Assembly (NCBI GenBank): GCA_035578155.1
Contig: JAPWDM010000060.1
Span: 144,001 to 208,000 of the forward strand
DNA: 64,000 nucleotides
DNA from: Brachynemurus nebulosus
Lineage: Eukaryota; Arthropoda; Insecta; Neuroptera; Myrmeleontidae
Direction of reading: 5' to 3'
Shown here: positions 28,034 to 61,754 of the stretch, one piece after another
Layout: the number at the start of each line of letters is the position of its first letter
Numbering within the stretch: position 1 is the stretch's first letter
Translations under genes and position numbers: made by a program
The notes under the pieces: model-generated
What the model was told of the DNA's origin: nothing
Database searches by the model: none
Seen by the model: the letters and a program-made list of their open reading frames with translations, nothing else

Positions 28034-28378
28034 TCCGTAACCCGGTGAACATTTTTCTGTAAATTTTATGTTACAGTGACGGAACTGAAAGTCACATGTT
28101 ACATAACATGTGAGTCACATGTGACTCATATGTAACTTACAATTTCCCACTTATAAACGTAACAATGTGACGTAACATTGTTATGTCCTTGTTACGTTTT
28201 AGGAAAATATAACTTTGATGTTACTTTATAGATAAAAATTACGCCTTCTTTTGCAAAAAGCAAATTCTAAAATTCCCTTTTTTTGTTTCTTATTAACATT
28301 ACATACACATATTACCAACTTATTGACATATACATACACCTAAATTATTATAATTATTATTATTATTTTTGTTGACTG

Positions 28379-28455
28379 TTGCAGGGTTCGAACCATTATC
28401 CAAGCTGAAGCATGTTTTAAATTATCGGCAGCCTTAACCACTAGACCAAACTTAC
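28379..28455 (-). ncRNA. tRNA-like module inside the MITE
   Basis: The minus strand has a box A-like TGGTCTAGTGGTTAAGG and a perfect box B GGTTCGAACCC about 50 bases apart. That is the internal RNA polymerase III promoter pattern of tRNAs. The sequence between does not fold as a proper tRNA anticodon arm. Copy 2 has the same module, altered, at about 47855-47930. Probably a SINE-like promoter remnant. Confidence 0.5.
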
Positions 28456-28974
28456 TTATGTTTTCTGATCGTTATACATTAATATATATCACAAAATAGT
28501 AAATAAAGCCTTACAAAAATTTTCATAAAAGTTTCATTTTTAAATCAATATGTAACAAAATTAACGTTGTTTTAAAGACGTATTAATGTTGTTTTAATGA
28601 AATGTTGCAATCATGACTCTTTTGTTATGTTTTTGTGACGTATCAATATTAATAAAACATTCGTTCATCCATTTCATCCATCCATTTTTGTATAAGTCGA
28701 TTTATGTTATTTGTTATATGGGTCATGGGGTTATATTATATATATATTATGGGGTTATATTATATAATATAACCCCATAACCGATATAACAAATAACATA
28801 AATCAACTTATACAAAAATGGATGGATGAAATTTAATTACATCAGACGCCAACAAGGGATAGATTGAAAAACTGCAGGAATCTTTAAAAGGATAATTCCT
28901 CACGAATTGATACATTTAAAATTAATATGGTAACAAAACATTTCACAAAAGTGACAAGTGAAATGTTTTATTAT

Positions 28975-29335
28975 TATTGATACGTCACAAAAACATAACA
29001 AAAGAGTCATGATTGTGATATTTCATTAAAACAACGTTAATACGTCACAAAAACATAACATAAGAGTACTGTTGTGACGTTTTGTTCAAAGTAACATTGT
29101 TAGGTCATCAGGACATAACAAAAGAGTCGTGGTTGTGACATTTCAATAAAGTAACGTTGATACGTCACAAAAACATAATATAAGAGTCATTTCTGTGACG
29201 TTTTATCAAAGTAACATTGTTAGGTTGCGAAGACATAACATAAGAGTCACACTGTGACGTTTTATCAAAGCAACCTTGATACATCATCTAAACGTAACAT
29301 AGCAGTCACAAATGTGACATTTTATTACAGTCACA
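28975..29335. repeat. About 60-bp tandem repeats in MITE half B
   Basis: Six units share the pattern TACGTCACAAAAACATAACA, AAGAGTCAT, GTGACRTTTYA and AAAGYAACGTT. The same units occur inverted at about 48370-48720 in copy 2. Confidence 0.8.
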
Positions 29336-29499
29336 ATGGCATGTAACTGTTACGTAACATACAGGTAACAATTAGGTATATAACATAAAACTCTAATTTT
29401 ATATAATTGTTATGTCACCCATAAGTCAAAAAAGTTACGTAACTTGTTATTTCCTTGTTACATTACATTTACATTCTATATTCACTGGGAATTTGTATT

Positions 29500-31440: not shown

Positions 31441-31919
31441 AATACAATTTAACTGGATTATAAATATATTATTAAAAATTAAACTTGATTTTGTTATTAA
31501 CGCTTTACAGCTCGCATTTTCAGCAACTGAAAATAGCTAGAACAACCGTACTGCCGTGTCACACGAATGTCATGTATCTTGGGATATAACAATTACGCGT
31601 AACAACGTTTAAAGGATTCTACTCAATCTAATATAATAAGAGAAGCATAAAACTATATAAGCGCCAAATTGCCACGTTTACAAGATATGAATTTTTTGAG
31701 TGTATTCAAGAGTGTCTAAATTATATTGTTCTGCTTATATGTAGATTTCTTGAGAAATACAGTATTACAAAATTCGACATCTCACAGTTTCAGGTTAGCT
31801 CAGTTACAGTTTGATAACTTTGTAGACGCGAACACAGACTATAGAATATAGTGTAAAAATTTAAAAATTTTACAAAATGGAGTTAGTGTTATGCGTCTCA
31901 GGTACAGAATTAGTCTATT
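31441..31919. other. Unassigned sequence between inverted-repeat element and MITE copy 2
   Basis: No coding potential or recognised repeat. It ends exactly at the CCCAGTGAACATTTT start of the MITE copy that the Polinton split. Confidence 0.4.
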
Positions 31920-31934
31920 CCCAGTGAACATTTT

Positions 31935-32697
31935 AGTAGAATGGCTAGGCCGGTACGGCCGCACAGTAAAACCCCAATTCTCCGGACTACTTTTTGACGG
32001 TGTTAAGAACCGTGTAGTTTGGGGTCCTACTATACCTCGTGTATGGATTGACCTTTGACCCGGCACGTACCGAGTACATGTATCAAAATTTGTTGTTGAC
32101 ATTTGACCCCCACACGCGCTCATACTGTTGGCCTTGAAATTCCTAAGTCATGAGTAATCATCACTTCGACAAAATAAATTCAAGTTAACCCATTATGCAT
32201 CATCACAATTTATTCATCACGATTTTGATTTGTGTCAACCCATTACCCGCCATAGTTTTTGAATGCACACCTAACGCATGCGCAGACTGAATTTTACTAT
32301 ACAACGCATGCGCAGACTGAATTTTAGGCCACAATTTGATAGATGGGGTACACTTCCGCGTCAAAATGTGGGAAATACCCTAACTCGGGGGTGGCCCCAA
32401 ACTTTTGACACCGTATTGTACTTAAATTTTTGGTACACTACCGTGTCAAAAGTGTGGACCTCCCCGACCAAAAAGGTATCCGATCACTTTTGTGTACGTG
32501 CAAACCTTGGCCTTTGACCCCAACACGCGCTTGCCTTAATTGCGTCATCTTAAACGAAAATTGGGCGGCCGCTAAATTTTGTGGGGGGGCACTGTACCAA
32601 TCGCTACCGCAAAACTAACTTCAGACTCCAGGGTCCAGACTCCAGATTTCAGACTCCAGAATCCAGATTCCAGAGTCCATAGTCCAGATTTCAGACC
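31935..32697 (+). repeat. Polinton left terminal inverted repeat
   Basis: About 760 bases mirrored at 46510-47513. The terminal 100 bases differ from the right end by only a few bases. Two near-identical GCATGCGCAGACTGAATTTTA units occur at about 32276-32325. The inner edge (32621-32697) is a minisatellite of TCCAGA-type units (GACTCCAG, GATTCCAG, GATTTCAG). Confidence 0.93.
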
Positions 32698-33312
32698 GGT
32701 TGTATATTAAGAATATGTTATGTATACACTCTGTATATCGCCATTTAATTTTAATTTTATAAATACTAGTAAATGATTGTAGTCTTTATGTCAACAAAAT
32801 CTAACTAAAATAATTTATCACTTTTATCAGCATTGGAAAAATATTTGCTTAATTAGCAAAAAAAAATAATATGTTTGCAAATAAATTCGTATATATTACT
32901 GTAGAATAAATACTTGGATTATTTCTTAATATGTATACTATAATTTAACATGTTGTTTAATGTAAAAATTATAACAACATTAAGATTTGCTAAATTTTTT
33001 TATAAATTAGTAGTTTTGAGGTACAAAATTTATAGAATATCATCTTAAAACTTGCATCACAAATACATAATATAATTATAATATACAAATGCATGTATAC
33101 GGGTGTATTCTTATACAGGGTGTATCATGAAATATGCTTTTCAATTAGAATAATAAATAAGATTTTTTTCAGTACTTTCATAGGTTAACGAAAGTAACTT
33201 CTTCCTGTAAAAAAAAAGGGGAATTTAGGGTAATAATTAAATAAAACGTACATATTTTTTTTTTTTTAAATTTTATTTATAAAATATGTATACAAAAAAA
33301 AAAATAAAATTG

Positions 33313-33379
<67 letters not shown>

Positions 33380-33486
33380 CTTAAAATCTATTTATTTTCC
33401 ATATAAAAATTTTCTAAAAGAATACAATTTTCTAATGAACAAATTTTATCTGAATGGATCATACAGCGTCTTGAATAATAATCATC
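32698..33486. other. Polinton left non-coding part with (TA)n
   Basis: Between the left repeat and the first gene there is AT-rich sequence without coding capacity, including a (TA)n tract at 33315-33377. No feature was recognised otherwise. Confidence 0.5.
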
Positions 33487-33873
33487 TCAGAGAATGGAAA
33501 TCTTCGGTACATCAAATATTTCTTCCAAATTCAAAATCCACGGCTGGTTTTCGGTACCATCAAACAAATTTGAAATCCATTTCTTCTTTTCACCGCCCTT
33601 GACGTATATGACATCATACTTATTTAATATAGGTTTCAATATGGTATGAAGTTTATTGTACGGAATAAATCCATACGACCAAGGTATCCCATGCCAATTT
33701 CGGCAAAGCCAACGGGCTACTCGTTGATATTTCTTCGGCAACTCGTTGAAATCAAACGGTGCGTCGAATACAAGATGTAATATATCATCTGAATTTTCTG
33801 CAGCAATACCAACTTCATTAAAATAAAATTCGTTGTTAGCTCCTTGATAGCCTTGTATGTCAAGAAACGCCAT
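33487..33873 (-). CDS. Conserved Polinton protein, possible RNase H-fold (function unknown)
   Basis: An intact 128-codon frame starts MAFLDIQGYQ. It contains an FDFNELPKKYQ segment, WLCRNWHGIPWSYGFIPY, and IYVKGGEKKKWI near the C-terminus. I recognise this as a small protein that recurs in insect Polintons and related integrated elements, but its role is not established. The opening xLDIQG strand and the later IYVKGxEKxxW block could be a degraded DEDD exonuclease-like layout; that is inference only. It is the last gene of the minus-strand morphogenesis cluster, 80 bases after the capsid gene, and has its own TATA box 47 bases ahead of the ATG. Still open, unlike many neighbours. Confidence 0.72.
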   Translation of the reverse strand: MAFLDIQGYQGANNEFYFNEVGIAAENSDDILHLVFDAPFDFNELPKKYQRVARWLCRNWHGIPWSYGFIPYNKLHTILKPILNKYDVIYVKGGEKKKWISNLFDGTENQPWILNLEEIFDVPKISIL

Positions 33874-33919
33874 TTTTTACCGCCGCCGTAAAACTGAAAT
33901 TATTCACACAATCCACAAC

Positions 33920-33927
33920 TTTATATA
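33920..33927 (-). promoter_or_regulatory. TATA box for the 33487-33873 gene
   Basis: TATATAAA on the minus strand, 47 bases upstream of the ATG at 33873 and just beyond the capsid stop codon at 33953. Confidence 0.5.
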
Positions 33928-33952
33928 GAATAATTAAAAGTGGTGGGGGTAA

Positions 33953-35136
33953 TTAGGTATACTTTTTAACCAGGTTAGTTAGTGGAATGTATTCGAAAAT
34001 GGCATCATGAACTAAAATGGCTATTGCTGTCGTACCAGCTGGAATATCTTTATTACATTTAAATTCTAAACGAACATCAACTGAACCGCTTTTCAGTGAC
34101 TCATTTTGATGTGAGCAATCGATAAAAACTATCGGAGCTATAGTTTTAAAATTCTCCCAATTTAAGAGCGGTTCATTGAAATGATGATAGTATGAGAACG
34201 ATGATAGTATTGAAAGCGGGTATACATATCATAAAGTATTGTATACTGATTAATATCAAATTTAATATTCAAATCATCATTAGGGTACACTTGTGAATTT
34301 AGGTAAACTTTGAAATTATTTAAATCACAATGATCAAACTTAGAAACATTTTTATCCTTTTTCTGTAAAGCGAAAATGATATATCGCGGTTTTTCTAGCT
34401 GTATAGTTGTTTTTACAACCCAAGTGTTTTGTTGTGTAGTTGGTAATGCAGGTTGAATATAAGTTTCCCACGCTCTAAAACTAATCTGTATAGGTTCAGC
34501 TTTTTCAACATATTTTAGCAGTGATAATTTAATTTGATCTGAAACAGTTACATGTGGAACACGCCATTCGAGTTTATTTATTTCAAATTTCAACGAATCC
34601 AATTCTGAAACAATAACATCGTTGTCAGTTTGTGCACGAATAAGAATTAATTCATGCTTTGCGTTTAACATAATTTTTCCATGATCCTCAGCGAATCCCA
34701 ATAATTTTCTAAGCGGAATGCAAAAGTTAAAGTTGGCTTGTGGTAATTTTATTGTACAATCATTATCAATCGACCAACCAGCGTTTAGTAATTGTTTACT
34801 CTCACCATCGTTTAACGATAAATAATTTTTCAATGTCGATGTTAGACCAACATACCTAACACGTTCAAGTTCAACCCCATTTAATTCATACCTAATTTCA
34901 TCGAATAGAAAGGCAATACAATTATTAACCAGTTTTATATCTGGAACGGCATTTTCATTATTTAAAATTTTCCCCTCAATGTAAATAAAACTTTCACTAG
35001 GTAAAATGTACAAGTCCTGGTTTTGAATTAATATTCTAACTTCGTCATTATTCTTAAAGGATCGTAAAAAGGGCGCATATGTATGATATTCAAAGTTCGT
35101 AATGCTATCATCAATTTGTGAGGCACCAGGAAATAT
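33953..35136 (-). pseudogene. Polinton major capsid protein (double jelly-roll), broken
   Basis: This would be the hexon-like protein building the icosahedral shell of a Polinton virion. Coding sequence runs from about 35136, where no ATG is found directly after the preceding stop, through DSITNFEYHTYAPFLRSF, ILPSESFIYIEG, the DEIRYELNGVELERVR block and FAEDHGKIMLNAKHEL. At about 34170-34200 a short TACTATCATC duplication shifts the frame and gives an early stop at 34162. The genuine C-terminal part continues in the other frame with IVFIDCSHQNESLKSGS and FEYIPLTNL to a stop at 33953-33955. Total about 390 codons. The missing start and the frameshift make it non-functional. Fold assignment is from knowledge of Polinton capsids. 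Confidence 0.85.
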
Positions 35137-35292
35137 TTAATACGTCGCTGTATACCATTTTCTTTTAACTTTGTGACCCAATGCTTCAAGAAATGCTAAA
35201 CGTTCAGGTGAAATACGCTGTTGCTTAAATGCTTTACGTTTAATGGTATTCAACTGAATGAGCTCAGGCTGTAAAAACCCTCTACATATTAT
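35137..35292 (-). pseudogene. Small Polinton ORF upstream of the major capsid gene
   Basis: An open stretch without an ATG reads GFLQPELIQLNTIKRKAF, then QQRISPERLAFLEALGHKVK and a TAA at 35137-35139 immediately before the capsid frame. A short basic protein in this position is usual in insect Polintons; its job is unknown. The start is lost (an in-frame ATG is missing; the nearby ATG is out of frame). Confidence 0.5.
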
Positions 35293-35325
35293 ATAGCCTA
35301 GCGGCGGGTTGCTCCAGATTGTAAA

Positions 35326-35767
35326 TTAACATGGTCTCAAATGCAAACGTACTGTGATTGTTTCACCGCGAAAGTCAACCAAATCACCGTCTTGATCGAC
35401 AATTTTCAGCGAAAGAGATGTTAACTCTCTAACGGTTACTGGTGAATAGATTATATTTCGCGGTACCTCAACTATTTTATACCCTGGCGCAACAAGAGGT
35501 GAAAATTCGTGAAGTGTGTGAGCTAATATTAGATTCAATGCGTATTGCATTCACCTTCATAATACTGACAGGGTCATTAGATGAGTGAAGCTTGTTTGGT
35601 TCCAATATCCGTTTAGTAAACCCTAAAAGTGAACCAATTGTACTAGGTTTAATGAAATCAATAGCTTTATTGCTAATTATTTCGCATTTGAGTGTGTTAT
35701 TATTAGAAGTATTTCCCGATAAAGTTAATGTGAACGCCATGACTTCGTCTTTTGAAATGTCGAACAT
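35326..35767 (-). pseudogene. Polinton minor capsid (penton-like) protein, deleted and frameshifted
   Basis: Starts MFDISKDEVMAFTLTLSG (ATG 35767), runs through LKCEIISNKAIDF and IGSLLGFTKRILEPNKLH, and is shifted near 35545. The remaining C-terminal part reads HTLHEFSPLVAPGYKIVE, VPRNIIYSPVTVREL and DFRGETITVRLHL to a stop at 35326. This is the single jelly-roll vertex protein of Polintons. At about 145 codons it is clearly shorter than the family, and the SGNTSNNNTLKC join looks like a deletion of an internal segment. It lies between protease and capsid genes, the expected order. Confidence 0.75.
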
Positions 35768-35786
35768 ACGTGGGCGTTGATTTCTT

Positions 35787-36161
35787 TTATAAATATTTAT
35801 CACCATCACCGTAATATTTATTATAAAGAAACTCCAAACATAAATGACCACATTTATAGGAATTGTAATCTTGATATTTATTATAATTGTATGTAATATT
35901 GTTTCCACTAAGGTAGCGAGCCACTTCAAGCGGTGGTTTTAAATTACCAAAACTATCAAAATAATCTACCTGATTACCATTTTTCCAGTAACAGGTCCAA
36001 TGAGTACCAGGTCCGGTAGAACTATCTAAATTTAAAATACCGCATTCATTATACCACGGTCCACGTTTGGGTAAATTATCGCACATAAATACTCCACGAA
36101 AATGGGGTAAATATTTCGCATATTTACGTAAATCTCTATCTGTTAGTGCCCGCTCGGGCAA
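35787..36161 (-). CDS. Polinton maturation protease (adenain-like cysteine protease)
   Basis: An intact 124-codon frame. It would cleave capsid precursors inside the assembling particle. The catalytic set is visible in the expected order: His in GPGTHWTCYW (about residue 54), an acidic residue in VDYFDSFG (about 65-70), Gln in YNKYQDYNSY (about 97) and Cys in KCGHLCLEF (about 104-108). The N-terminal DLRKYAKYLPHFRGVF and the GILNLD strand also fit the Ulp1/adenain fold. Length matches the short Polinton form. Its stop lies 19 bases before the minor capsid ATG and its start 5 bases after the PLA2-protein stop, so the three are packed like a cassette. No break found. Confidence 0.88.
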   Translation of the reverse strand: MPERALTDRDLRKYAKYLPHFRGVFMCDNLPKRGPWYNECGILNLDSSTGPGTHWTCYWKNGNQVDYFDSFGNLKPPLEVARYLSGNNITYNYNKYQDYNSYKCGHLCLEFLYNKYYGDGDKYL

Positions 36162-36166
36162 TTTTA

Positions 36167-36940
36167 TTATAAGTTTTTTGGATACGGTTGCAAGTATAAT
36201 CCTAAACCTTTTCTATATGGTTTTATATACAAACCCCGGCCATTACGTATAGCAATAGCCTCCATCGTTCGGTTATGGCGTTCACTTTCATTCAACTTTT
36301 TTTGTGCCGCTTTAGCATCATTAATAGCTTTCGCAATTCCTGATGCACCACCCGCTAACACACCAGCTGCCGAAAGTGCCGCAAAAATTGGTAAAAGTGG
36401 TAGAATACCACCCGTTTTAGGTATTGGAATAATACGTGGTGTTTTAATTTTTTTACCCCTAGCTGCAACTTTAGCCGCTTTAAGAACAAGCTTTACAGCA
36501 TTATTAATTGGTTCACGTTTTAATTTTTTAACAGTACCACGTACACTTCTTCGCACTTGACCGAGTGTAGCCTTTTTGTTCACGCCCATACCAAGTTTTA
36601 CTTTCGCTTTTATGGCGTTTGTTACTGCCCACGCAGCAGCTTTTTCACCAAATTTTGCGTCTGAAGATTTAACTCGATCCCAGGCGGCGTTTGCTAAAAT
36701 TAAATCCGCCTTATGTCGATCAGAGAGATTTTTACTTTGCGAGTAAACGATATCGTGTGCGTTACAAGCTTCGTCTAATTTATTGATTCCCGGATCACCT
36801 CTTGCTAATCTTTCTTGTAATTTTGTACCCGGTCCACAATATTGATAGCCGGGTATGTGAAGTTCGAACGATAATTTGTTAATTAATGAATTAACAAGTC
36901 CACGACCACTTCGTTGTTGTTGCCGGTTGTGACGTAACAT
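36167..36940 (-). CDS. Polinton structural protein with parvovirus-type phospholipase A2 domain
   Basis: An intact 257-codon frame. Near the N-terminus it has GYQYCGPGT (calcium-binding loop YxGxG) and EACNAHDIVYSQ (catalytic HDxxY), then DRHKADLILANAAWDRVK, the pattern of the phospholipase A2 domain that parvovirus capsids use to leave endosomes. The remainder is strongly basic and then has an alanine/glycine-rich hydrophobic segment (LPLLPIFAALSAAGVLAGG, about residues 173-195). It ends with two GLY(I/L)(K/Q)PY motifs, reminiscent of core/membrane-active minor proteins. The ATG at 36940 lies 34 bases after a TATAAATA box. Being open while neighbours are broken, it is one of the best preserved genes of this copy. 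Confidence 0.85.
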   Translation of the reverse strand: MLRHNRQQQRSGRGLVNSLINKLSFELHIPGYQYCGPGTKLQERLARGDPGINKLDEACNAHDIVYSQSKNLSDRHKADLILANAAWDRVKSSDAKFGEKAAAWAVTNAIKAKVKLGMGVNKKATLGQVRRSVRGTVKKLKREPINNAVKLVLKAAKVAARGKKIKTPRIIPIPKTGGILPLLPIFAALSAAGVLAGGASGIAKAINDAKAAQKKLNESERHNRTMEAIAIRNGRGLYIKPYRKGLGLYLQPYPKNL

Positions 36941-36973
36941 TAGAACTGAATGCTGATAATATTTGATTCGAGC

Positions 36974-36981
36974 TATTTATA
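36974..36981 (-). promoter_or_regulatory. TATA box for the PLA2-domain gene
   Basis: TATAAATA on the minus strand, 34 bases before the ATG at 36940. It overlaps the stop codon of the upstream gene (36977-36979). Confidence 0.55.
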
Positions 36982-37276
36982 GATTCATGAAAAATTGAAA
37001 AGAATCAATTTCATGAACAGCTAATTTACAATTTTGATCACTTTCAATCAAATAAATCCTCTTTTCACAACAATTAGAAATTATAATATATAGATGCATA
37101 ATATCATCCTTTTCAATATGATTAAAAACTATTGACAACAATGGTTCATCAGAATCGTTAAACCATTTAATTTCATTGTTGTCGGTAACTTGTGGATCAC
37201 TGCAACAATTAAATTCATTGTTGACGAGTATACATTCAAGACCTAAGGTGCACCAATCCACGCTGTAGTGATTCAT
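36977..37276 (-). CDS. Small acidic Polinton ORF, function unknown
   Basis: From the ATG at 37276 the frame encodes 99 residues. It starts MNHYSVDWCTLGLECIL and contains CCSDP, IKWFNDSDEPLLSIVFNH, a hydrophobic MHLYIIISNCCEKRIYLIE strand pair and EIDSFQFF. It is acidic and cysteine-bearing, with no recognised motif or signal peptide. The frame stays open upstream of the ATG, but the promoter (TATATAAA at 37314-37321) sits there, so 37276 is the better start. It shares a compact divergent promoter with the ATPase gene. Confidence 0.6.
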   Translation of the reverse strand: MNHYSVDWCTLGLECILVNNEFNCCSDPQVTDNNEIKWFNDSDEPLLSIVFNHIEKDDIMHLYIIISNCCEKRIYLIESDQNCKLAVHEIDSFQFFMNL

Positions 37277-37295
37277 GATGACTACTGCGCGTAAG

Positions 37296-37321
37296 TATAT
37301 AAGGGGGTGAGTGTTTATATA
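37296..37321. promoter_or_regulatory. Back-to-back TATA boxes, divergent promoter
   Basis: TATATAAG on the plus strand (37296-37303) and TATATAAA on the minus strand (37314-37321) lie 10 bases apart between the minus-strand gene starting at 37276 and the plus-strand ATPase starting at 37384. Each TATA points to the gene on its far side, so the two transcription units overlap at their starts. Confidence 0.6.
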
Positions 37322-37383
37322 ATCAATCAGAAGCGTTAAAAATGCGTTTCGTAAAACAAAATGTTGAACTACCAATCAAAAAT

Positions 37384-38020
37384 ATGGATTTTGTATCAAC
37401 CACATTAGCTGAAAAAAAGCATGGCCCCTTATTACCGTATAATCTCTGGTCCTTCGGGGTGTGGCAAGACTAGCATTTTATTAAATTTATTAGAACATCC
37501 GAATGGATTAAGTTTTGAAAATATTTATCTCTATTCAAAATCACTCTGCCAACCAAAGTATGAGTATCTGAAACGCGTTCTCAAACCAATAAGGGGTTTA
37601 GGATATTTTACTTTTTCTAATAATGATGATGTTATAGCGCCAGAAGATGTGAAAGGTAATTCAGTTTTTATATTTGACGATGTTGCAACGGATAAACAAA
37701 ATAATATTAGAGCATAATTCAGTATGGGGCGTCATAAAGATGTTTCAGTCTTCTATCTTTGTCAGACATACAGTTTCATTCCAAAACAATTACTTAGGGA
37801 TAATGCTAATTTAACAGTTTTATTTAAACAAGATTTAACTAATATCAAACATGTTTTCCAAGAAAATGTAGGTAGTGACATGTCATTCGATCAGTTCAAA
37901 GAAATTTGCAATGAATGTTGGCGTGAAAGGTTCAACTTTTTGATTATAGATAAAGACAGTGAGTTGAATAGCGGAAGGTATCGTAAAAATTTCGATATCT
38001 TTATTCAAATTAAAAACTGA
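37384..38020 (+). pseudogene. Polinton genome-packaging ATPase (FtsK/HerA type), broken
   Basis: This enzyme would drive DNA into capsids. The ATG at 37384 begins MDFVSTTLAEKKHGPLLPY. A frameshift near 37435 moves to the frame with the Walker A motif ISGPSGCGKTSILL, and the Walker B strand SVFIFDDVAT is at about 37665-37690. An in-frame TAA (37715-37717) interrupts before FSMGRHKDVSVFYLCQTY (arginine/sensor region), after which the frame is open to 38020. So there is one frameshift and one nonsense codon in about 210 codons. It is the first gene of the plus-strand block and shares the divergent promoter. Confidence 0.88.
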
Positions 38021-38302
38021 TTTTTAAAAATCAATAACATATAAATTATTTCTATGTGAAATACCATTGTGTGTGCGGTCGAACCGAAATAGACTAACTT
38101 ATTCATTTTTACTTATTTTTTTCTCATTACTCTCTTTCGGTTAACTGAAATTAGTTCAGAAAACAAAATGAAAAGCTATATGCAAGTATCATTTACATAG
38201 TTCACTGCCAAGCGACCGCATACCTACTCATTATCAACATCAAAATATTTGCTCCTGAATATAGGCAATTACATTGCGTTACCAAGTGGCCCCATACCTA
38301 CT

Positions 38303-38514
38303 GGTGCAGTGCGGTCGAACCGAAATAGTGTGCAGTTGAACCGAAATAGTGTGCGGTCAAACCGAAATAGTGTGCGGTCGAACCGAAATAGGGTGCGGTC
38401 GAACTGAAATAGTGTGCGGTCGAACCGAAATAGTGTGCGGTCGAACCGAAATAGTGTGCGGTTGAACCGAAATAGTGTGCGGTCGAACCGAAATAGTGTG
38501 CGGTCGAACCGAAA
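38303..38514 (+). repeat. 21-bp tandem repeat in the Polinton centre
   Basis: About ten copies of GTGCGGTCGAACCGAAATAGT with scattered changes; an extra single copy lies at about 38070-38090. Its complement is open in one frame and would read a repeating FGSTAHY heptapeptide, but that is a by-product. It lies just upstream of the TATA box at 38550. Confidence 0.93.
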
Positions 38515-38549
38515 TCCCTGTTCAGTTCATCAGTTTGGGTCGGAAAAGC

Positions 38550-38557
38550 TATAAAAT
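38550..38557 (+). promoter_or_regulatory. TATA box for the 38623 gene
   Basis: TATAAAAT lies 66 bases before the ATG at 38623. TTCACATT about 20 bases downstream could be the initiator. The 21-bp repeat array ends 36 bases upstream. Confidence 0.6.
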
Positions 38558-38622
38558 GGCTGTGTGCACGTTCACATTGCACATTTGCTAGTAAACTGTA
38601 ATAGCATAAGCACGCACACACT

Positions 38623-39603
38623 ATGGATAACGAACGGGAGCTAAAACGAAAAATCATCAATGCTACAAAATCCATACGCGCCAAATACCGTGCGCTGAAA
38701 GATAGTCAGTTTAAATGAGAGAAAAATTTACAAGAATCATTTAAGCCAATAACGGAGCCACTTAAGGAACTAGCTGCTGAAATAAGAAACGAACCAATAA
38801 AAAGTTTCTTGCTTAAAGATGAAAAACCTAAAATTAAAAAAGCACGTCTTTCAACCGATTCTGATGTCGATATAAAGTCACGTTTTCTTAGTAATGATAA
38901 TAATGATGATGAAACTGAGATATTTAGGTCAACGCTTATGGAACAAAGTAGTCAACCTACAGCAACACCTTATGTGATGGAATAAAGTAGTCAACCTACA
39001 GCAAAACCCTATGTTGGTGCACTAGCTGAAAAATATCTCACGTTAGCAACCACACGTAGAGCTAAAAGAACCCTTGATCGTACCTATGGACCGCGTATAG
39101 ATGAGCGAACAAATAAATGGATAATTGGTAATTTTGAATGGGATATAATTGATGATAATTTTATTATTAACAACATCGTTTACCCCGGCATTGAAGGTTT
39201 CTTTGAGTTAATGTTTAAAAAATATCCAAATCATCATGTATACACAGAGTCGGATTTAGATACTTATAAGACCATTTTAAAAAGTACTAATGCGCATAAA
39301 AGAAGTTATAATATTAATGCACCAGTTAATTCAAATCAAAGTTATAAGTATAGAATAATTATAAAAAAACTTTTTCCATCGTCACCAAGGTACACGTCAA
39401 CACCCAAACGACAAACAACCGGTTCCGGTTTAATGCATTATGATGCTAATCAAACGATTGATTATCGTTATTGGAATGATATAGACGAACTTATCGATAG
39501 GCTAATATTATTGGTTGCATCACAGCAAGCTGTACATACCAATCATCAAAATGAGATACAAGCCATTTTAGAGGAATTGCGTGAGGCTGATGTAATAGAA
39601 TAA
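38623..39603 (+). pseudogene. Conserved Polinton protein of unknown function (DUF8207-like), two stops
   Basis: A 327-codon frame from MDNERELKRKIINATKSI to EELREADVIE. It is interrupted by TGA at 38716-38718 and TAA at 38983-38985. Features: a basic coiled N-terminus ending RAKYRALKDSQ, PITEPLKELAAEI, an acidic variable linker with a 39-bp direct duplication (38937 and 38976; the second stop lies in the second copy), AEKYL, then the conserved core RTYGPRIDERTNKWIIGN, VYPGIEGFFELMFKKYP, TESDLDTYKTIL and WNDIDELIDRLILLVASQQA. I recognise this core as a protein common in insect Polintons; the domain name is from memory. Possibly structural or regulatory; unknown. Confidence 0.7.
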
Positions 39604-39641
39604 ATACAGGTGATCAACCTGATTAGATAGTCATTTCAAAC

Positions 39642-39993
39642 ATGAGCGTTGACAAATTCGGTCGATTCAGCAGTGGCGGAAAGGCCGCTTCCATTAATTT
39701 AACAACGAATGGTGATTACGATATGAAAGGTAAACGTCTGACGAACGTTCACACACCTAAACATAATGCTGATGCTGTTAACTTGGCTTTTCTTAATGAA
39801 GCGCTTACTAAAATTTCGGACGGTATGAACACTTGAAAATTCACATAAACAATTTGAATCAATTGCGACCGCAAAACTTAGTCATTTGGAGAACATGGAT
39901 AATGAGTTGAAAATGGTAATGGAAACTATTCCAAATACGGTATTTAAGGAGGAATTTCACGTTAAATTTAAGCAATTAGAAAATAAAATATAA
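39642..39993 (+). pseudogene. Small Polinton coiled-coil protein, frameshifted
   Basis: Starts MSVDKFGRFSSGGKAA, then TTNGDYDMKGKRLTNV and a DAVNLAFLNEAL segment. At about 39834 a one-base shift gives an early TGA. The other frame continues LSHLENMDNELKMVMETIPN and a lysine-rich end to a TAA at 39991-39993. The MSVDKFGR start with a following xxGDYDMKGKRLTNVxxP block is typical of a short Polinton protein of unknown role, perhaps a fibre- or spike-like trimer because of the heptad pattern. That is inference. Confidence 0.6.
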
Positions 39994-40006
39994 TTTATTT
40001 CGAACC

Positions 40007-40014
40007 TATATAAG
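40007..40014 (+). promoter_or_regulatory. TATA box for the integrase gene
   Basis: TATATAAG lies 42 bases ahead of the ATG at 40049. A short MPTVQDE upstream frame (ATG 40033) overlaps it. Confidence 0.55.
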
Positions 40015-40048
40015 CAACTCACTGTAAATACCATGCCAACAGTTCAAG

Positions 40049-40975
40049 ATGAGTAAGGTTAAAGAACAAGTTGTAAGCGAATTACACAGACCAGCTCGTA
40101 AAAATTTCAAAAGACGTCGTGTTATAACTAAGGGTATTGATGACTTATGGCAGGCTGATCTTGTTGAAATGGGTGCTTATGCGAAAGAAAATCATGGATA
40201 TAGCTACCTGTTGACAGCTATTGACACATTTTCGAAGTATGCTTGGACTGTACCGGTAAAAGATAAATCTGGAGCGCTTGTTACTGCTGCCATGGAATCA
40301 ATATTCAAACAGAGCAAGCGCACACCGACTCACCTTCAAACAGTCGACGGCCGAGAATTTTTTAATAGTAACTTTAAGGCGTTAATGGAAAAACATAATA
40401 TTAATCATTACTCTACGTATAGTACGTTAAAAGCTTCAATCGTTGAACGTTTTAATCGTACCATTAAGAATAAACTTTGGCGTGCTTTTTCTCTAAACGG
40501 TAATTATAAATGGTTGCAATTAATTAACGATTTAGTTGATGAATATAATAGAACAAAGCATCGTACAATCAAAATGGCTCCACGAGATGTCACTGCTGAT
40601 AATGAAGCATATTTATTATCTAATGTATACAGTAATATAAAAATCGCTGGTGCAGCCAAGGATAAAGTTAACGACTTTGTTTGAATTAGTAAATTTAAAT
40701 CAATCTTTGAAAAAGGTTACACATCGAATTGGTCTACGAAATTTTTTAAAATCGTCAAAGTTCAACATACAAATCCGGTTACATATCTACTTGAAGATAT
40801 CAACCAACGTACTATCCGAGGCAGCTTTTACGAGTATGAACTACAGAAAGTTAAATATCCTGATGTGTACCTCGTGGAACGAATTCTGAAGAGACGTGAT
40901 GGGAAAATATTGGTCAAGTGGCTTGGTTTCCCATCGGATAACAACAGCTGGATTCAAGAATCTGATATTGTTTAA
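40049..40975 (+). pseudogene. Polinton retroviral-type integrase with chromodomain, one stop
   Basis: This would insert the element and make the 6-bp duplication. A 309-codon frame with a single in-frame TGA at 40682-40684. The rve core shows the catalytic triad in DDLWQADLVEM (Asp), LQTVDGREFFN (Asp) and ASIVERFNRTIKN (Glu). After the stop come FEKGYTSNWSTKFFKIVKV (SH3-like C-terminal domain) and a chromodomain, VYLVERILKRRDGKILVKWL ending NNSWIQESDIV. The N-terminus (HRPARKNFKRRRV) is short and appears to lack the zinc-binding domain. It follows the small coiled-coil gene by 55 bases. Confidence 0.92.
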
Positions 40976-41164
40976 ACAATCTAATTTTTTGGTAATCTGT
41001 AAGATAAAAAGGTTTTTTCAAATAAATAACATATATATGTAAATACTTTACTTTTCTTTATTTTTTAAAAATATAAGTATGAATACAAAATATTTTCACA
41101 ATAAATGTATATGAAATATTTTTTACAATAAATGTATATGAAATATTTTTACAATAAATAAATA

Positions 41165-41920
41165 TTAAAAATTGTATGATTTGTTTATATATTCAATAAC
41201 ACCCGAACGTAATTGTTTCATGTTTTCAGGTAACTGATCCCATACTTGACAAATTCGTTGTGCATATTCGGGTATCATATATGCATACAGATGTTTCACC
41301 CAAATATCATATTTCAATAGCTGTTTTGTTAAGTATAATAACATATCGAAATTTCTGACTTTCGTATACAAATAAGGATGAGTCAGAAATATGTCTTCAA
41401 CGTGTGAAATCCGTGTTGCAAATGTCAATGGTTCACCAATGGGCGGTTGAAAGTTTTCCTCCATTTTCACACCATTCTTACACATTTCGCAGCGAATTTT
41501 CAAACCAGGTGGTCCATCAATATGATCTTGTTGTCATGGTCGATTATAATGTTCAAAACATGGTTCGCATTCTTGAAACATGGTTCTATAATCGGCTGGT
41601 AACCAAATCCAGGCGCGTTGTATGATTTTCGCACCATAACTTTTCAGCACATTCAAACTGATCCACTTGTAGATTTGAAGAAATGTTTCCAAAGTCAGTT
41701 CGTTCAGCAGCATTGGTTCACGTTCGAAAAATTCACCAATTGAAACATCCATTTTATCCCAGTCCATTGATTCCGGTTCAAACAATTTCAAATTTTGCAT
41801 TTTTACAATAGCATCAATTGTTTTTTCGTAGATATCAATCCGTTTACGTAGTATATCTAGTTCACTAGAAAATATTTGTAGCCGTTTCCAGTAAGCTGAT
41901 GATGACGATGCCATTTCCAC
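41165..41920 (-). pseudogene. Polinton protein with two CxxC pairs, function unknown, one stop
   Basis: One frame of 251 codons from MASSSSAYWKRLQIF (the ATG at 41920, or the one two codons on) to YINKSYNF, with a TGA at about 41520 in the middle. The N-terminal half is helical and acidic (LDILRKRIDIYEKTIDAIV; IGEFFEREPMLLNELTLETF). The centre carries CEPCFEHYNRP and, past the stop, IRCEMCKNGVKMEEN, a four-cysteine zinc ribbon-like arrangement. The C-terminal half has LTHPYLYTKVRN. It begins 8 bases after the polymerase stop, so it is likely co-transcribed. Not recognised as a named family. Confidence 0.55.
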
Positions 41921-41927
41921 TTGCGTA

Positions 41928-44900
41928 CTAATTTAACGAGTAATGTCCCCATGCTAAAGTATCCGTTTCCCCCTCCACAATATGTCGTTTCGTATCGTAC
42001 GGGCTGAGCGCCACCTTGTTCTGTGTCACACTATAAACGTTATGTTTCCTCGATTGTATCAGGTTTTGTTGCCGGTTTATGATTGTATTGTATTTTAGAC
42101 AGTCCACGTAATCGTTGAAAGTGATCTTTTCTTAACCACTGAGCTCTTTACACCTTTCGCTTTCTTCGTGTGATCCTCGCCGTCCACTTGACAACTATAC
42201 ATTTTCGATCTTAAGCCAAAAAACTTTGTAAAGATTCGACCATTTAGCTCGTCCTTCATTAACCCGGGTATTTTCTTATTTAGTCTAGGCATGTTATATT
42301 GATTATCCGCGCTGTAATCCGACGTATCAAAGTATTGAATATCACGTTTCATTATCTCGTAAACATCTGCGCACTTTATCTCGTAAATCAACGAATCCAT
42401 GTCTGTGTAATTTGCTGTTGTTCCCGAACGTTGGTTGTATGTAGTTATAATGGAAATTATAGACACACGTTTTTGAAATATCCAGTATTGCTTGCCCGAC
42501 GTATATTGGTTTATTCATAATTACTTCCGTTTTCGACCGCGATAAGATTCTCGTCAAATATGGTGCGGCTGTGGAAATTCGGTTTTGCTATCATAACTTC
42601 CGCACCATATCGTCCATACCGTTTCGTTAACAGTTTCACAATCGAGTGTTTCCACACATTTTCCATCGTTTTCCCGAAGACCGCGTTGTTTAGTAGTTTG
42701 TAGAGATTCTTCTCGAATTCGTTTCCCGCCATTTGTCGCAAAGCCGTGTTTAAATCTATGTAGGATTTGAGCCAAGGTGATTGATCGAATTGTAGCACTC
42801 TATGAATTTTCAATAATTTCATCCCGTGTTGTAGACATTGTTTCAGGTTTCGATAGTGTATCACGTATTTCTGTTTGTTGTATAGCGTTGCCAGTAACAT
42901 TTCCTGTTTTGTACCGGGTGCACACATTCTCTCTGGACATAATGGTAAATCGTTGTGTTTATCGTGTAGCTCTCTCGGGTATTCCAAATCCACTTCAAAT
43001 ATGTATCCTGTAGGTGACTCGTCGCTTATTTCTCGAACATCTATCTCGGCATTTTCCCTCCATTTGAAATTTCCCGTTGGTAAGTATTGTGACATTGTCC
43101 ATCCATATAAGTTGTTCACGTCGTAGTACATCAGGTATTTTGATTCCTCGTCCGGATCGTAGGTGTTCATATATTTATTGTTTGCTGTCGCGTATCGGTT
43201 ACTACACTGGCTCAATCCGCCTCGAATACCACGTTCAATGAATAATAAATGATCCACATCGGATATCAGTTCTAACTCCACTTTTGTATATTTTAAGGCT
43301 GCATCCCACGTAAGTCCCGGCGCCGTGTAATAATGAGCTGGATCTAATCCGTGTGTGCGCATGCACGTATCCCGAAAATTCTCAAAAACATCCGCGAGTA
43401 GTAGTATGTCCGTTTTCATATATAAAGCTGAATATTCTCCAAGCGTCTGTATGTTGAATGTATCCCAAACTTTTTGTGCGTGTATGTAGTCATCCACGGT
43501 GATATCGTTGTCGTTGAGTTGATGGTAGAATTTCTCCTGTGATGATAAACATGTTTCTTCCAATTTATCCCAGCCTGATATGTAGTCGTACCTTTGCGCG
43601 TAAGTAATTTGAAGTCGGTATTCGGAAAATGCGATTTAACTATGTTGAACTCGTTGAGGTATGAAGATAATTTATCCAAACTTGATGCCATAAATCGGAA
43701 AGAGTCGATGAATCTGAATGTAATTTCGCTGCCGGGAACATGTTTAGTGAATGCAATGTATCGTTCCTTGTTGATTGGTAGAAAGTCGACACGTCCCTCG
43801 AAGGCTATTGCAATATCTTTGATCACGAAATGTGCATCATAACCAGTCAAATTGTGGAATACGACAGGAATCATATGAAAATCCTTATAATTCAAGTTGC
43901 ATCCCTTGTGCGCAGGTCCATTGTACTCGCCGGTGAAGTGGTTATGGTCACGAACAGCAATATCCTCAGGTTTGAATGGTTTCTCGCAAATGTGGCACCC
44001 GGTACTTCGTTGTTTAAGTTGTTGTTGTTCTTCTGGTGTTAGCTCGTTCATCGGTACAATGTTTTCAAATATTGGTTCTAAGATGTTTTCACGTAACGTT
44101 GCCAGTTCTTCCGTGAACCATTTTTCGCAATTTGGTCCGCGGTATGGTCGATAGTAGCTTAGTTGATTGTTGTAGGAGCAGTGAAAGTAGTAACCGATAC
44201 TGTATGCACGATGTTGTTGGTACGTTGTTGTATTCTTCTGATTTCCGTTATCCGTCACAGGTTGTAGGAATGATTCCACGTCGGCGTAAATTATAAATGA
44301 AACACGTTTTTTGTTGCTATAATTCTTGAATGATATGTATTTGCTTTTCCCTTCTGGCATTATCACCCGACAGTTGTTCATGTTCACGCAGTCTTCTGTA
44401 TGTTTGATCAGTTTATCTTCTGTACGAAAGTAATTCAGGCATCGATCACAAATGTAATGGCGGTGGTCACGTTTTGATAATTGTCTTGATACAATTCGCG
44501 ATAAGTCCTTAATCGAACAGAAATGGTAGCGTAAATCTTGATCGTTGTCGTTGTCCTGTTCGTTGTCCTCATCCTCGTAATCCTCGTTCTGGATCATTAA
44601 AAGGTTTAGGTGATGTTCTTTTTTCTCTCTCGTTAGCGCAGCAGGTACGGTTTCAAAATGTCCATTTTGTTTCTTTAACACAAACACGTTAATTGATATA
44701 GCTGGGTTCTGTTTCTCGAATTTCCTCACTTGTTGGATCGTCATTGGAAATTGTATCCCGTCTAAATTTAGCACCGTTGAGTAGTGTGGGTACGCTGATG
44801 TTCTTTGAGCAATTTTGTTGTTAGCTGGATGAAGTGCAGATACTACTGCCCACGCGAAACAGGCGTCATCGTTGAAGTTTTCAATGTTGATACATGCTTG

Positions 44901-45684
44901 TTTTCGTTTTATTTCCTGCGGCAATTCGATGTAGCTTAATCCACGAAAAGGTGTATACTTGTTGATGTTCACGGCTAGGTTAATTATGGAGAACAATTCC
45001 CACCCGCTCCCCGACTCGGCAAATTCGCTCAATTTTCTTAGAATTAGTTCCTGTACGTGTTCCACCAAGCATTGTTTTAGATTTGTTCCACGATCTATTA
45101 TGATATTCGGAGTATTGAAGTGTTTCATGTCGTATTTATCCACATCACCATCCGAGTTAACGAATAACCCGCGAGACGTTGTATTCACTTTAATCGTCAG
45201 GTATTGTTTCAGAATATTTTTTATTCGTCGGGTGAACATTGACCTGGCGTCCTCTAAAAAGTCCTTTGGTTCTATGTGCTTTATGTTGATAACCACTCCC
45301 GTTCGTATCCGGCTCGCAAATGCTGATTCAACGTCCGCCCATTGGATTCTGTCCGACTGTTTCCGTTGGTTTCGATTCATACCAGCAACTAAAACAATCA
45401 ACATATTAAAATTATAAAAAAATCATTAAAAAAATTATAAAATTTATATTTGAAAAATAAAACTTACCATGTTTTTGTAGCGCCTTCATTCTAATACGAA
45501 ACCCTTTCATTTTTCCCGCACATGACTCGAAGTGTTTCCGTTGTCCCAAATTTTCTGCTCCACGTATAGCCTTGTTGATTAGTCTTATATTGGTATTTGT
45601 ATGTTTCATCCATTTTTCCAGTTCATCCACATCCCGTGTATCCATTTCCAGTAATGATATCGCGTTTCGTACATTTTCCACCAT
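41928..45684 (-). pseudogene. Polinton protein-primed family B DNA polymerase, with intron, multiple frameshifts
   Basis: This would replicate the element. Exon 1 (45684-45468; helical, DVDELEKWMKHTNTNIRL) joins exon 2 at 45388. The main frame to about 43570 holds CFAWAVVSALHP, an acidic linker, a C2H2 finger (CDRCLNYFRTEDKLIKHTEDC region), Exo I YADVESF, an endonuclease VII-like zinc motif (CHICEKPF ... RDHNHFTGEYNGPAHKGC) and Exo II NLTGYDAHF. After a shift at about 43570: Exo III YMKTDILLLADVF, Pol A YYDVNNLYGWTMSQYLP and Pol B KLLNNAVFGKTMENV. Further shifts at about 42540, 42440 and 42120 separate Pol C (YTDMDSLIY, where DTDS is usual) and the C-terminus (stop 41928-41930). About 1,190 codons in all. 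Confidence 0.93.
45389..45467 (-). other. 79-bp intron in the Polinton polymerase gene
   Basis: On the minus strand a GTAAGT donor after CATG (45462-45467) and an acceptor TTGATTGTTTTAG (ends 45389) bracket AT-rich sequence with frame loss. Splicing joins QKHG/V to AGMNRNQRKQ in frame and removes the hydrophobic intron-encoded residues. Splicing would need host nuclear transcription. Confidence 0.7.
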
Positions 45685-45749
45685 TCTAACTGTCACGTCG
45701 TTTAATGAAGCCCTTGTATTTAAAAAAAAATCTCGATACAAATTCTTGC

Positions 45750-46509
45750 AATAAAAACAATATTAATAGCTTGAAGACTGCTGAAGAAGTGATTTGAGGG
45801 GGCACGCGGACCTCAATTTATACGATTTTGACTACTCGACAAATTCTGGAGGGGAATCACAAAAAATGCTGACTCAATTGCGTTTAATTTTTACAACGCA
45901 AATAACCGAAGGTTAAAAGGTCAAATTCCTAGAAATTTATTTCGCATTTGAAACCTAATTGCTGACTAATCTTAAATAAACATTTTTAAAATTAAAACTT
46001 ATATAAACAAATTGAAAAAACCCCCGATTATTACCAATCCATAAATTAAAAATTCCGAGCAAACTATTTCGTATTTGAGATTAAACAAAGAAATTGCTGT
46101 GTTGTCAACATCTTAAATAAACATTTTTAAAATTAAAACATGGCTTATGTAAACAAATTGAAAAATATCTGAGTATGAGTCAGCAAAATCTTAAATAAAC
46201 ACATACCTATATTACTGATTTTAATGTAAACAAATTTATTTTGAATTCCTGGAACATTGTCCTAATGTCCTGAATGACATTAATGTAAACAAATTTATTT
46301 TGAATTCCTGGAACTGACAAGTTGTGACTTGCTTTTAAATAAAAATCCCCTCTGACTATGATGCAAACATATCATGAAATTACGTCATCCTGAGTCAGCT
46401 AAAAAATCTTAAATAAACAAACTCAAACCGTATAAAAGTCACGAGTTTTTATTAAATAAACAAATTAATTTCCTCAAGTACAATTGACATCCAAATTACC
46501 GGCAGTAGA
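45750..46509. other. Polinton right non-coding part with direct repeats
   Basis: AT-rich with recurring CTTAAATAAACATTTTTAAA, ATGTAAACAAATT and a 45-base direct repeat (AAATTTATTTTGAATTCCTGG at about 46232 and 46290). No gene. Could hold regulatory or replication-start sequence, but nothing proves that. Confidence 0.5.
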
Positions 46510-47513
46510 GTAGCGGTCTGAAATCTGGACTCTGGACTCTGGAATCTGGAGTCTGGAGTCTGAAATCTGGAGTCTGGACCCTGGAGTCTGAAGTTAGTTT
46601 TGCGGTAGCGCTTAGTACAGTGCCCCCCACAAAATTTAGCGGCCGCCCAATTTTCGTTTAAGATGACGCAATTAAGACAAGCGCGTGTTGGGGTCAAAGG
46701 CCAAGGTTTACACGTACACAAAATAAGTACCTGTACGCTTCAAAAAGTGATCAGATACCTTTTTCGCCAGGGGTCCACACTTTTGACACGGTAGTGTACC
46801 AAAAATTTAACTACAGTACGGTGTCAAAAGTTTGGGGCCACCCCTTGGGTTAGGGTATTCCCCACATTTTTGACGCGGTAGTGTACCTTTCGTTTAAAAT
46901 GACGCAATTAAGGCAAGCGCGTGCTAGGATCAAGATTTGCACGTACAGTACGCTTCAAAATGTGCTCGGATACGTTTTTGGTCAGGGGGACCACACTTTT
47001 GACACGGTAATGTACCAAAAATTTAAGTACAGTACGGTGTCAAAAGTTTGGGGCCACCCCCGAGTTAGGGAATTCCCCACATTTTGACGTGGTAGTGTAC
47101 CCCATCTATCAAATTGTGGCCTAAAACTCAGTCTGCGCATGCGTCGTATACTAAAATTCATTCTGCGCATGCGTTAGGTTTACATTCAAAAACTATGGCG
47201 AGTAATGGGTTAACACAAATCAAAATCGTGATGAATAAATTGTGATAATGCATAATGGGTTAACTTGAATTTATTTTGTCGAAGTGATGATTACTCATGA
47301 CTTAGGAATTTCAAGGCCAACAGTATGAGCGCGTGTGGGGGTCAAATGTCAACAACAAATTTTGATACATGTACTCGGTACGTGCCGGGTCAAAGGTCAA
47401 TCCATACACGAGGTACAATAGGACCCCAAACTACACGGTTCTTAACACCGTCAAAAAGTAGTCCGGAAAACTGGGGTTTGACTGTGCGGCCGTACCGGCC
47501 TAGCCAGCCTACT
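46510..47513 (-). repeat. Polinton right terminal inverted repeat, with internal duplication
   Basis: Mirrors 31935-32697 but is about 240 bases longer. A unit with CGCTTCAAAA, TTTTGACACGGTA, TGTCAAAAGTTTGGGGCCACCCC and GTTAGGGTATTCCCCACAT is present twice (about 46735-46900 and 46950-47090). The left end has it once. The TCCAGA minisatellite is at 46513-46600. Confidence 0.92.
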
Positions 47514-47806
47514 CATTTTTCTGTAAATTTTATGTCGCAGTGACAGAACTGAAAGTCACATGTTACATAACATGTGAGTCACATGTGACTCACTTGTAAC
47601 TTACAATTTCCCACTTATAAACGTAACAATGTGACGTAACATTGTTATGTTCTTGTTACGTTTTAGGAAAATATAACTTTGATGTTACCTTATAGATAAA
47701 AATTACGCCTTCTTTTGAAAAAAGCAAATTCAAAATTCCCTTTTTTTGTTTCTTATTAACATTACATACATATATTACCAACTTATTGACATATACATAC
47801 ACCTAA

Positions 47807-47841
<35 letters not shown>

Positions 47842-48930
47842 CTTTGTTGACTGTTGCAGGGTTCGAACCATTATCTAAGCTGGAACATGTTTTAAATTAT
47901 CGACAGCCTTAACCACTAGAACAAACTTACTTATTTTTTCTGATCGTTATATATTAATATATATCACAAAATAGTAAATAAAGCCTTACAAAAATTTTCA
48001 TAAAAGTTTCATTTTTAAATTAATATGTAACAAAATTAACGTTGTCTTAACGACGTATTAATATTGTTTTAATGAAATGTTGCAATCATGACTCTTTTGT
48101 TATGTTTTTGTGACGTATCAATATTAATAAAACATTCGTTCATCCATTTCATCCATCCATTTTTATATAAGTCGATTTATGTTATTTGTTATATGGGTTG
48201 TGGGGTTATATTATATATAGAATGTAAATGTGATGTAACAAGCAAATAACAAGTTACGTAACTTTTTTGACTTATGGGTGACATAACAATTATATAAAAT
48301 TAGAGTCCTATGTTATATACCTATTTGTTACCTGTATGCTACGTAACAGTTACATGCCATTGTGACTGTAATAAAATGTCACATTTGTGACTGCTATGTT
48401 ACGTTTAGATGATATATCAAGGTTGCTTTGATACAACGTCAGTGTGACTCTTATGTTGTCTTCGCAACCTAACAATGTTACTTTGATAAAACCTCACAGA
48501 ACTGACTCTTATGTTATGTTGTTGTGACGTATCAACGTTACTTTAATGAAATGTCACAACTATGACTCTTTTGTTATGTCCTGATGACCTAACAATGTTA
48601 CTTTGAACACAACGTCACAACAATACTCTTATGTTATGTCTTTGTAACGTATTAACGTTGTTTTAATGAAATGTCACAATCATGACTCTTTTGTTATGTT
48701 TTTGTGACGTATCAATATTAATACAACATTTCACTTGTCACTTTTGTGAAATGTTTTGTTACCATATTAATTTTAAATGTATCAATTGGTGAGGAATTAT
48801 CCATTTAAAGATTCCTGCAGTTTTTCAATCTATCCCCTGTTGGCGTCTGATGTAATTAAATTTCATCCATCCATTTTTGTATACGTTGATTTATGTTATT
48901 TGTTACATGGGTTATGGGGTTATATTATAT
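47514..48930. mobile_element. CCCAGTGAA-ended MITE, copy 2 (target of the Polinton), half B inverted
   Basis: The first 15 bases of this copy are at 31920-31934, left of the Polinton; the rest resumes at 47514 with the duplicated CATTTT. Half A matches copy 1 to about 48220. The right part (48225-48930) matches copy 1 half B in inverted orientation, starting at its outer end (ATAGAATGTAAATGTGATG). It includes a (TTA)n tract at 47812-47840 and an altered tRNA-like module. Confidence 0.75.
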
Positions 48931-49278
48931 CCCAGTGAACATTTTTTTGTAAATTTTATGTCAGTGACAGAACTGAAAGTCACATGTTACATAACATGTG
49001 AGTCACATGTGACTCACATGTAACTTACAATTTCCCACTTATAAACGTAACAATGTGGCGTAACATTGTTATGTTCATGTTACGTTTTAGGAAAATATAA
49101 CTTTGATGTTACCTTATAGATAAAAATTACGCCTTCTTTTGCAAAAAGCAAATTCAAAATTCCCTTTTTTTGTTTCTTATTAACATTACATACAAATATT
49201 ACCAACTTATTGACTTATACATACACCTAAATTATTATTAATTTTTTTTTTGTTGACTGTTCCAGGATTCGATCCATT
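48931..49278. mobile_element. CCCAGTGAA-ended MITE, copy 3, truncated
   Basis: Starts CCCAGTGAACATTTTTTTG and follows half A of copies 1 and 2 until TTGACTGTTCCAGGATTCGA, inside the tRNA-like module, where it meets the copia gag frame. Confidence 0.75.
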
Positions 49279-49281
49279 GGG

Positions 49282-61332: not shown

Positions 61333-61404
61333 TGGATCGGCTGGGACTCGAACCCGGATCTCTTGGTTACCAGCCAAGCGCCTTACCAACTAGGCCACCG
61401 ATCA
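61333..61404 (-). tRNA. tRNA-Thr(GGU)-like module, unit 1
   Basis: On the minus strand it folds as a full cloverleaf: acceptor TGATCGG/CCGATCC, D arm GCCT...AGGC with box A TGGCCTAGTTGG, anticodon arm CTTGG-CTGGTAA-CCAAG with anticodon GGT, and T arm with box B GGTTCGAGTCC. There is a mismatch at acceptor pair 1 and in the T stem. The GGU anticodon is unusual for a eukaryotic tRNA-Thr gene and the copy lies in a repeat, so it is more likely a mobile tRNA-derived promoter than a working tRNA. Confidence 0.55.
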
Positions 61405-61682: not shown

Positions 61683-61754
61683 TGGATCGGCTGGGACTCG
61701 AACCCGGATCTCTTGGTTACCAGCCAAGCGCCTTACCAACTAGGCCACCGATCA
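61683..61754 (-). tRNA. tRNA-Thr(GGU)-like module, unit 2
   Basis: Identical module 350 bases downstream in the second unit; same anticodon, box A and box B. Confidence 0.55.

Follow-up and report, generated by a model that had tools for sequence, protein, structure and literature searches.

A full-length, decayed Polinton/Maverick, probably integrated into a MITE-like repeat, in Brachynemurus nebulosus

Introduction

Can the insertion of a virus-like DNA element into an insect genome be read to the base, both from its own ends and from the repeat that it interrupts? This question is raised by a Polinton/Maverick at positions 31935-47513 in a stretch of 64,000 nucleotides from Brachynemurus nebulosus (Neuroptera, Myrmeleontidae; assembly GCA_035578155.1, contig JAPWDM010000060.1, positions 144,001 to 208,000 of the forward strand). 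This whole stretch is called the window, and all positions are counted from its first base. An earlier note, made from the letters alone, had described the element as full-length and flanked by a perfect 6-bp duplication, with a capsid gene set inside and a readable empty site. Here, we conclude that it is very probably a full-length, decayed Polinton/Maverick, which probably integrated itself into a copy of a repeat resembling a miniature inverted-repeat transposable element (MITE), 15 bases from the end of that repeat, duplicating CATTTT. Base-exact boundaries and adjacent uninterrupted copies of the target make it a good marker for tracing the unoccupied site through related strains or species, and hence for dating one Polinton insertion; otherwise, the element is one further copy of an abundant and well-described kind, with an unusually clean insertion.

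Results

Boundaries, inverted arms and target duplication

The element spans 15,579 bp, starts with AG and finishes with CT. At the left junction (31934/31935) CATTTT is followed by AGTAGAATGG, and at the right junction (47513/47514) CAGCCTACT is followed by CATTTT, so that both the boundaries and the duplication of the earlier note were right to the base. When two random 6-mers were taken from the window, they agreed with a frequency of 0.00075 (200,000 draws), indicating that the CATTTT pair is not due to chance. Long terminal inverted repeats, AG...CT ends and a 6-bp duplication on both sides, which are among the features by which Polintons/Mavericks are recognized, are all present.

The outer parts of the two arms (31935-32463 and 46985-47513) align over 529 bp without gaps and with 24 mismatches, a difference of 4.5%. 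The inverted repeat extends further inward, to approximately 32698 on the left and 46514 on the right. An extra stretch makes the right arm the longer of the two (about 1,000 vs. about 764 bp). In this stretch, 75 bp duplicate the neighbouring sequence at 96%, at a distance of 216 bases; a longer comparison with the neighbour was poor (29 differences in 192 positions, 42 gap columns). We also observed that, despite the 24 mismatches overall, arm positions 99-266 (32033-32200 compared with the right arm) contain none. If 24 points were placed at random, a gap of at least 168 would occur with a probability of about 0.003 (hand calculation). Candidate readings of this segment are a conversion patch and a constrained block.

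Empty site and interrupted repeat

The claim had also been made that removal of the element and one CATTTT restores the start of a repeat present at 28041, with one base different, and closely at 48931. We joined 31920-31934 to 47520-47830, keeping a single CATTTT, and compared the product with these two copies, named A and C. The joined flanks were identical to copy A (28041-28366) at 96.6% of 325 aligned positions (11 differences, 2 gap columns) and to copy C (48931-49254) at 96.3% of 324 (12 differences, 2 gap columns), and the empty site is therefore restored as proposed, at 96-97% over about 325 bp. In the left flank, 14 of the 15 bases agree with copy A and all 15 with copy C, which bears out the one-base difference at 28041 and the close match at 48931. 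Taken by itself, the right flank can be aligned with copy A for about 700 bp (94.9% by BLAST; 24 differences in 688 aligned positions, 13 gap columns).

To the left of the element, the repeat is represented by 15 bases only, and a BLAST comparison of 31400-31934 with the rest of the window returned nothing at E 1e-8. It could accordingly be argued that these 15 bases match by chance and that the empty site is misread. However, with up to two mismatches allowed, the 15-mer was found at the three repeat starts only within the 64-kb window, and the join runs on through about 310 more bases of the repeat. We consider a chance match barely credible, and the empty-site reading, although its left part is short, is sound as judged from these alignments.

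Copy A (28041-29490) starts with CCCGGTGAAC and finishes with TTCACTGGG, and it has imperfect 9-base inverted ends. Inspection by eye of this copy, the sole one with both ends, revealed no target duplication belonging to the repeat, and for this reason we call the repeat only MITE-like. The label MITE given earlier thus fits in part: the inverted ends agree with it, whereas no target duplication was seen. Compared with the interrupted copy, the inner half of copy A runs in the opposite orientation (28762-29481 vs. 48930-48215).

Several further observations were made on these repeats. At the centre of copy A, beside the half that is inverted relative to 48215-48930, lies a palindrome of about 160 bp (28671-28832; about 91% self-complementary). 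Words that seemed to resemble A- and B-boxes on the reverse strand had suggested a tRNA-derived short interspersed nuclear element. This candidate was dropped, since no tRNA was listed when copy A was scanned against Rfam at a permissive E of up to 5. The 20 matches listed were all below the curated cut-offs; most were microRNA models placed on the palindrome, and they were treated as chance. Copia-type sequences adjoin both copies, with fragments of pol (26941-28070) at the start of copy A and a fragment of gag (49241-49777) at the far end of copy C.

Gene content

The coordinates of all features are collected in Table 1.

Table 1. Features of the element and of the repeat that it interrupts (positions in the window; aa, amino acids).
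Feature	Position	Strand	Remarks
MITE-like copy A, uninterrupted	28041..29490	+	empty-site comparison; ends CCCGGTGAA / TTCACTGGG
Interrupted MITE-like repeat, left 15 bases	31920..31934	+	right part 47514 to about 48219
Target duplication CATTTT, left copy	31929..31934		6 bp
Left terminal inverted repeat	31935..32698		begins AGTAG; inner end approximate; about 764 bp
Open piece, 129 aa	33487..33876	-	no assigned family
Major capsid protein gene, double jelly roll	33953..35136	-	two pieces in different frames; Pfam PF21738
Probable penton (minor capsid) gene	35340..35770	-	at least two frames; open pieces directly upstream of the major capsid gene
Probable adenovirus-type cysteine protease gene	35787..36212	-	weak match to cysteine protease S273R, E 0.022
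Protein with parvovirus-type phospholipase A2 domain	36167..36976	-	Pfam PF08398, E 9.4e-12
Open piece, 132 aa	36977..37375	-	no assigned family
Probable packaging ATPase gene, A32-like	37409..38020	+	one in-frame stop; weak P-loop and Pox_A32 matches
Minisatellite, 21-bp unit, 9.9 copies	38309..38515		between the ATPase gene and the 205-aa open piece
Open piece, 205 aa	38986..39603	+	no assigned family
Integrase gene (rve) with C-terminal chromodomain	40028..40975	+	one in-frame stop between the domains
Two adjoining open pieces, same frame	41165..41932	-	no assigned family; taken as one gene with an in-frame stop
Family-B DNA polymerase gene	42095..45422	-	three pieces in different frames; endonuclease VII-like domain in the first piece
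Open piece, 116 aa	45412..45762	-	no assigned family
Right terminal inverted repeat	46514..47513		ends CTACT; about 1,000 bp; exceeds the left owing to an extra stretch
Target duplication CATTTT, right copy	47514..47519		6 bp
MITE-like copy C, partial	48931..49278	+	empty-site comparison

The identification of the major capsid gene is firm: its two pieces matched adjoining parts of the DJR-like profile PF21738 (E 1.7e-91 and 6.2e-21). In a search of 5.8 billion proteins, at least 2,000 of the 2,579 candidate homologues reached E up to 0.001. Among the 120 matches listed, 11 name an organism, all of them insects (nine fly, one lacewing, one bee). An AlphaFold2 model of the 324-aa capsid piece, built with 17 homologues, had a mean predicted local distance difference test score (pLDDT) of 68, with values below 50 at residues 1-9, 108-127 and 286-324. 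Its best match among solved structures was a capsid chain of Paramecium bursaria chlorella virus 1 (PBCV-1; E 8.0e-07, TM-score 0.40 by query length), followed by chains of the PBCV-1 major capsid protein VP54 (3kk5_A, E 1.9e-06), mixed with chains of the vaccinia D13 scaffold, a double-jelly-roll protein. Among the 50 matches listed from a viral library, most of the named ones were capsid or capsid-like, and some were uncharacterised or other proteins. When the capsid and the phospholipase A2 (PLA2) protein were compared with a phage collection by tblastn, no relative was found.

The integrase gene matched Pfam rve (E 3.2e-13) and Chromo (E 8.6e-06), as well as integrases in the PDB (best E 5.1e-05). 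In the polymerase gene, DNA_pol_B_2 was matched by the middle piece only (E 7.7e-18, profile positions 137-386 of 468), and the position of the outer pieces suggests that they are part of the same gene. The first of them matched Endonuclease_7 at E 0.0016, below the cut-off, and a PHROG endonuclease VII at E 4.9e-05. The PLA2 protein also matched capsid/VP1 chains (best E 0.0005).

Three further genes are probable. The protease gene gave no Pfam match at 0.1; S273R, which it matches weakly, is a cysteine protease of African swine fever virus. The ATPase gene reached 18.0 bits with Pox_A32, for which the cut-off is 22.8, and its P-loop match was also sub-threshold. The penton gene is suggested by its position and open pieces. 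Thus, the capsid gene set of the earlier note stands firmly for the major capsid protein, and for penton, protease and ATPase as a probable assignment from weak matches or position.

For the 129-aa open piece, four candidate homologues were retrieved, none at E 0.001 or better. Its one Pfam match (E 0.078) was below the cut-off, other profile scans gave no family, PDB matches were at E 0.19 or worse only, and the mean pLDDT of its model was 40. The two adjoining pieces at 41165-41932 appear from their position to be one gene.

Decay of the copy

In-frame stops were found in the ATPase and integrase genes and between the pieces at 41165-41932, and frame changes in the major capsid, penton and polymerase genes. 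Pieces were joined as one gene by contiguous profile matches (capsid), by the order of profile matches (ATPase) or by position (penton). At least five genes thus contain a stop or a frame change, namely those for capsid, penton, polymerase, ATPase and integrase, and judging by its reading frames the copy is a fossil. Movement of this copy is predicted to require help in trans.

Frame changes are a frequent error of some long-read assemblies, and the breaks might in principle be sequencing or assembly errors in an intact copy. This is very improbable, as the number of broken genes is high, in-frame stops are among the breaks, and the arms have diverged as well.

Identity and history of the element

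The ends, target duplication, size and gene set all argue for a Polinton/Maverick, and we regard this identification as right on the sequence. Some results weigh against it or against the proposed history. In its second half, the capsid model has few strands and is poorly formed, and its fold match is modest. Scans of viral_contigs with the major capsid piece, the integrase piece and an alignment of 18 capsid proteins found no relative. The protease, ATPase and penton genes were assigned from sub-threshold matches or position. Finally, the difference between the arms (4.5%) is slightly greater than that between the repeat copies (3.5%, right flank vs. copy A), though the repeat must predate the insertion; these two rates are not distinguishable (24/529 vs. 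24/688, Fisher p 0.38).

Beyond the features observed directly, from the ends and inverted arms to the target duplication, the interrupted repeat and the remains of genes with their broken frames, a life cycle can be proposed from the known biology of the family. When the element was active, a presumably protein-primed polymerase would have copied it starting at the inverted ends, and the integrase would have inserted this copy into host DNA through a 6-base stagger. Packing into virions would have been made possible by the capsid, penton, ATPase, protease and phospholipase genes. Since the insertion, the element has accumulated stops and frame changes.

The virion genes and the parvovirus-type phospholipase would also fit an infectious adintovirus-like virus that was inserted recently, rather than a resident transposon, and adintovirus-like genomes of 13-15 kb from Drosophila samples are described in the available text of PMC8363768. 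However, the divergence of the arms and the breakage of at least five genes indicate that the insertion is not recent, and we judge this origin unlikely. On the evidence of one copy, the element may have arrived by infection or by movement within the genome. We retain the reading of a decayed Polinton/Maverick that probably integrated itself into the repeat.

Surroundings in the window

Remnants of gypsy-type, copia-type and LINE-type (long interspersed nuclear element) elements lie around the Polinton/Maverick, among them a gypsy-type retrotransposon at 51265-55165 whose long open frames are carried by the minus strand. An exon of a host gene, cysteine dioxygenase, was found on the minus strand at 2102-2605 (Pfam E 6.9e-13) and continues into a TA-rich repeat. 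Seven of its 28 homologues carry an organism name, six being insects (a leafhopper, two beetles, a lacewing and two Musca flies) and one a lobster, which by itself points to an arthropod host and most likely to an insect. Two tRNA-Thr (GGT) genes lie on the minus strand at 61333-61404 and 61683-61754, with starts 350 bases apart.

Comparison with known systems

In the available text of PMC8097293, vertebrate Mavericks have end motifs starting with AG, including AGTAGT, and 6-bp target site duplications; intact elements measure 12.7-24.6 kb with terminal inverted repeats of 46-1,447 bp, and 96% of the elements are defective. Both ends of the present element carry the first five bases of the motif AGTAGT. 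Polintons are described in part of PMC4028283 as 15-20 kb long, with polymerase, integrase, ATPase, protease and two capsid proteins. The present element shares with these Polintoviruses the gene set and the size, and its probable penton gene lies where one is expected, close to the major capsid gene; unlike them, as far as that text goes, the present copy is decayed, and its penton is argued from position and open pieces only. Drosophila-associated adintovirus 1-3 are 13-15 kb long, and one is described with capsid, protease and FtsK genes in the excerpted PMC8363768. PolB, integrase and capsid genes, and probably protease and FtsK-type genes, are shared with that described adintovirus, whereas the present element is integrated and broken, and known here as integrated DNA alone.

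A further comparison concerns the phospholipase. Sf Maverick 1 and 2 from Spodoptera frugiperda cells, described in the 2018 armyworm Maverick paper (PMC5803895), have in its available sections a PLA2 protein, an integrase chromodomain and an endonuclease VII-like domain, and no PY homologue. Their gene set is almost the same as that of the present element: they have in common with it PolB with an endonuclease VII-like domain, an rve integrase with chromodomain, the PLA2 protein and probably an A32-like ATPase and an adenovirus-type protease, and their ATPase and protease scores are similarly weak in those sections. A PLA2 domain is also named in a figure key of PMC3671162, in the part available, which mentions beetle and aphid genome fragments too. 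Within a limited literature and wording, only PMC5803895 was found to join Maverick, phospholipase A2, double jelly-roll and insect, so the co-occurrence of PLA2 and a double-jelly-roll capsid may be under-described.

According to the same sections, the Sf Mavericks are without a double-jelly-roll PY capsid, and their PLA2 protein is named CAP, a different capsid-like protein. Unlike them, the present element holds both the PLA2 protein and the double-jelly-roll capsid gene, and this pairing in one element bears on the role of the PLA2 protein. By analogy with parvoviruses, we tentatively suggest, giving it a little less than even weight, that the PLA2 protein of insect Mavericks may be an extra virion enzyme beside a double-jelly-roll shell, used for crossing the cell membrane, and not an alternative capsid, the role put forward for the armyworm elements. 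If this is true, insect Mavericks would have been infectious viruses that came into cells from outside.

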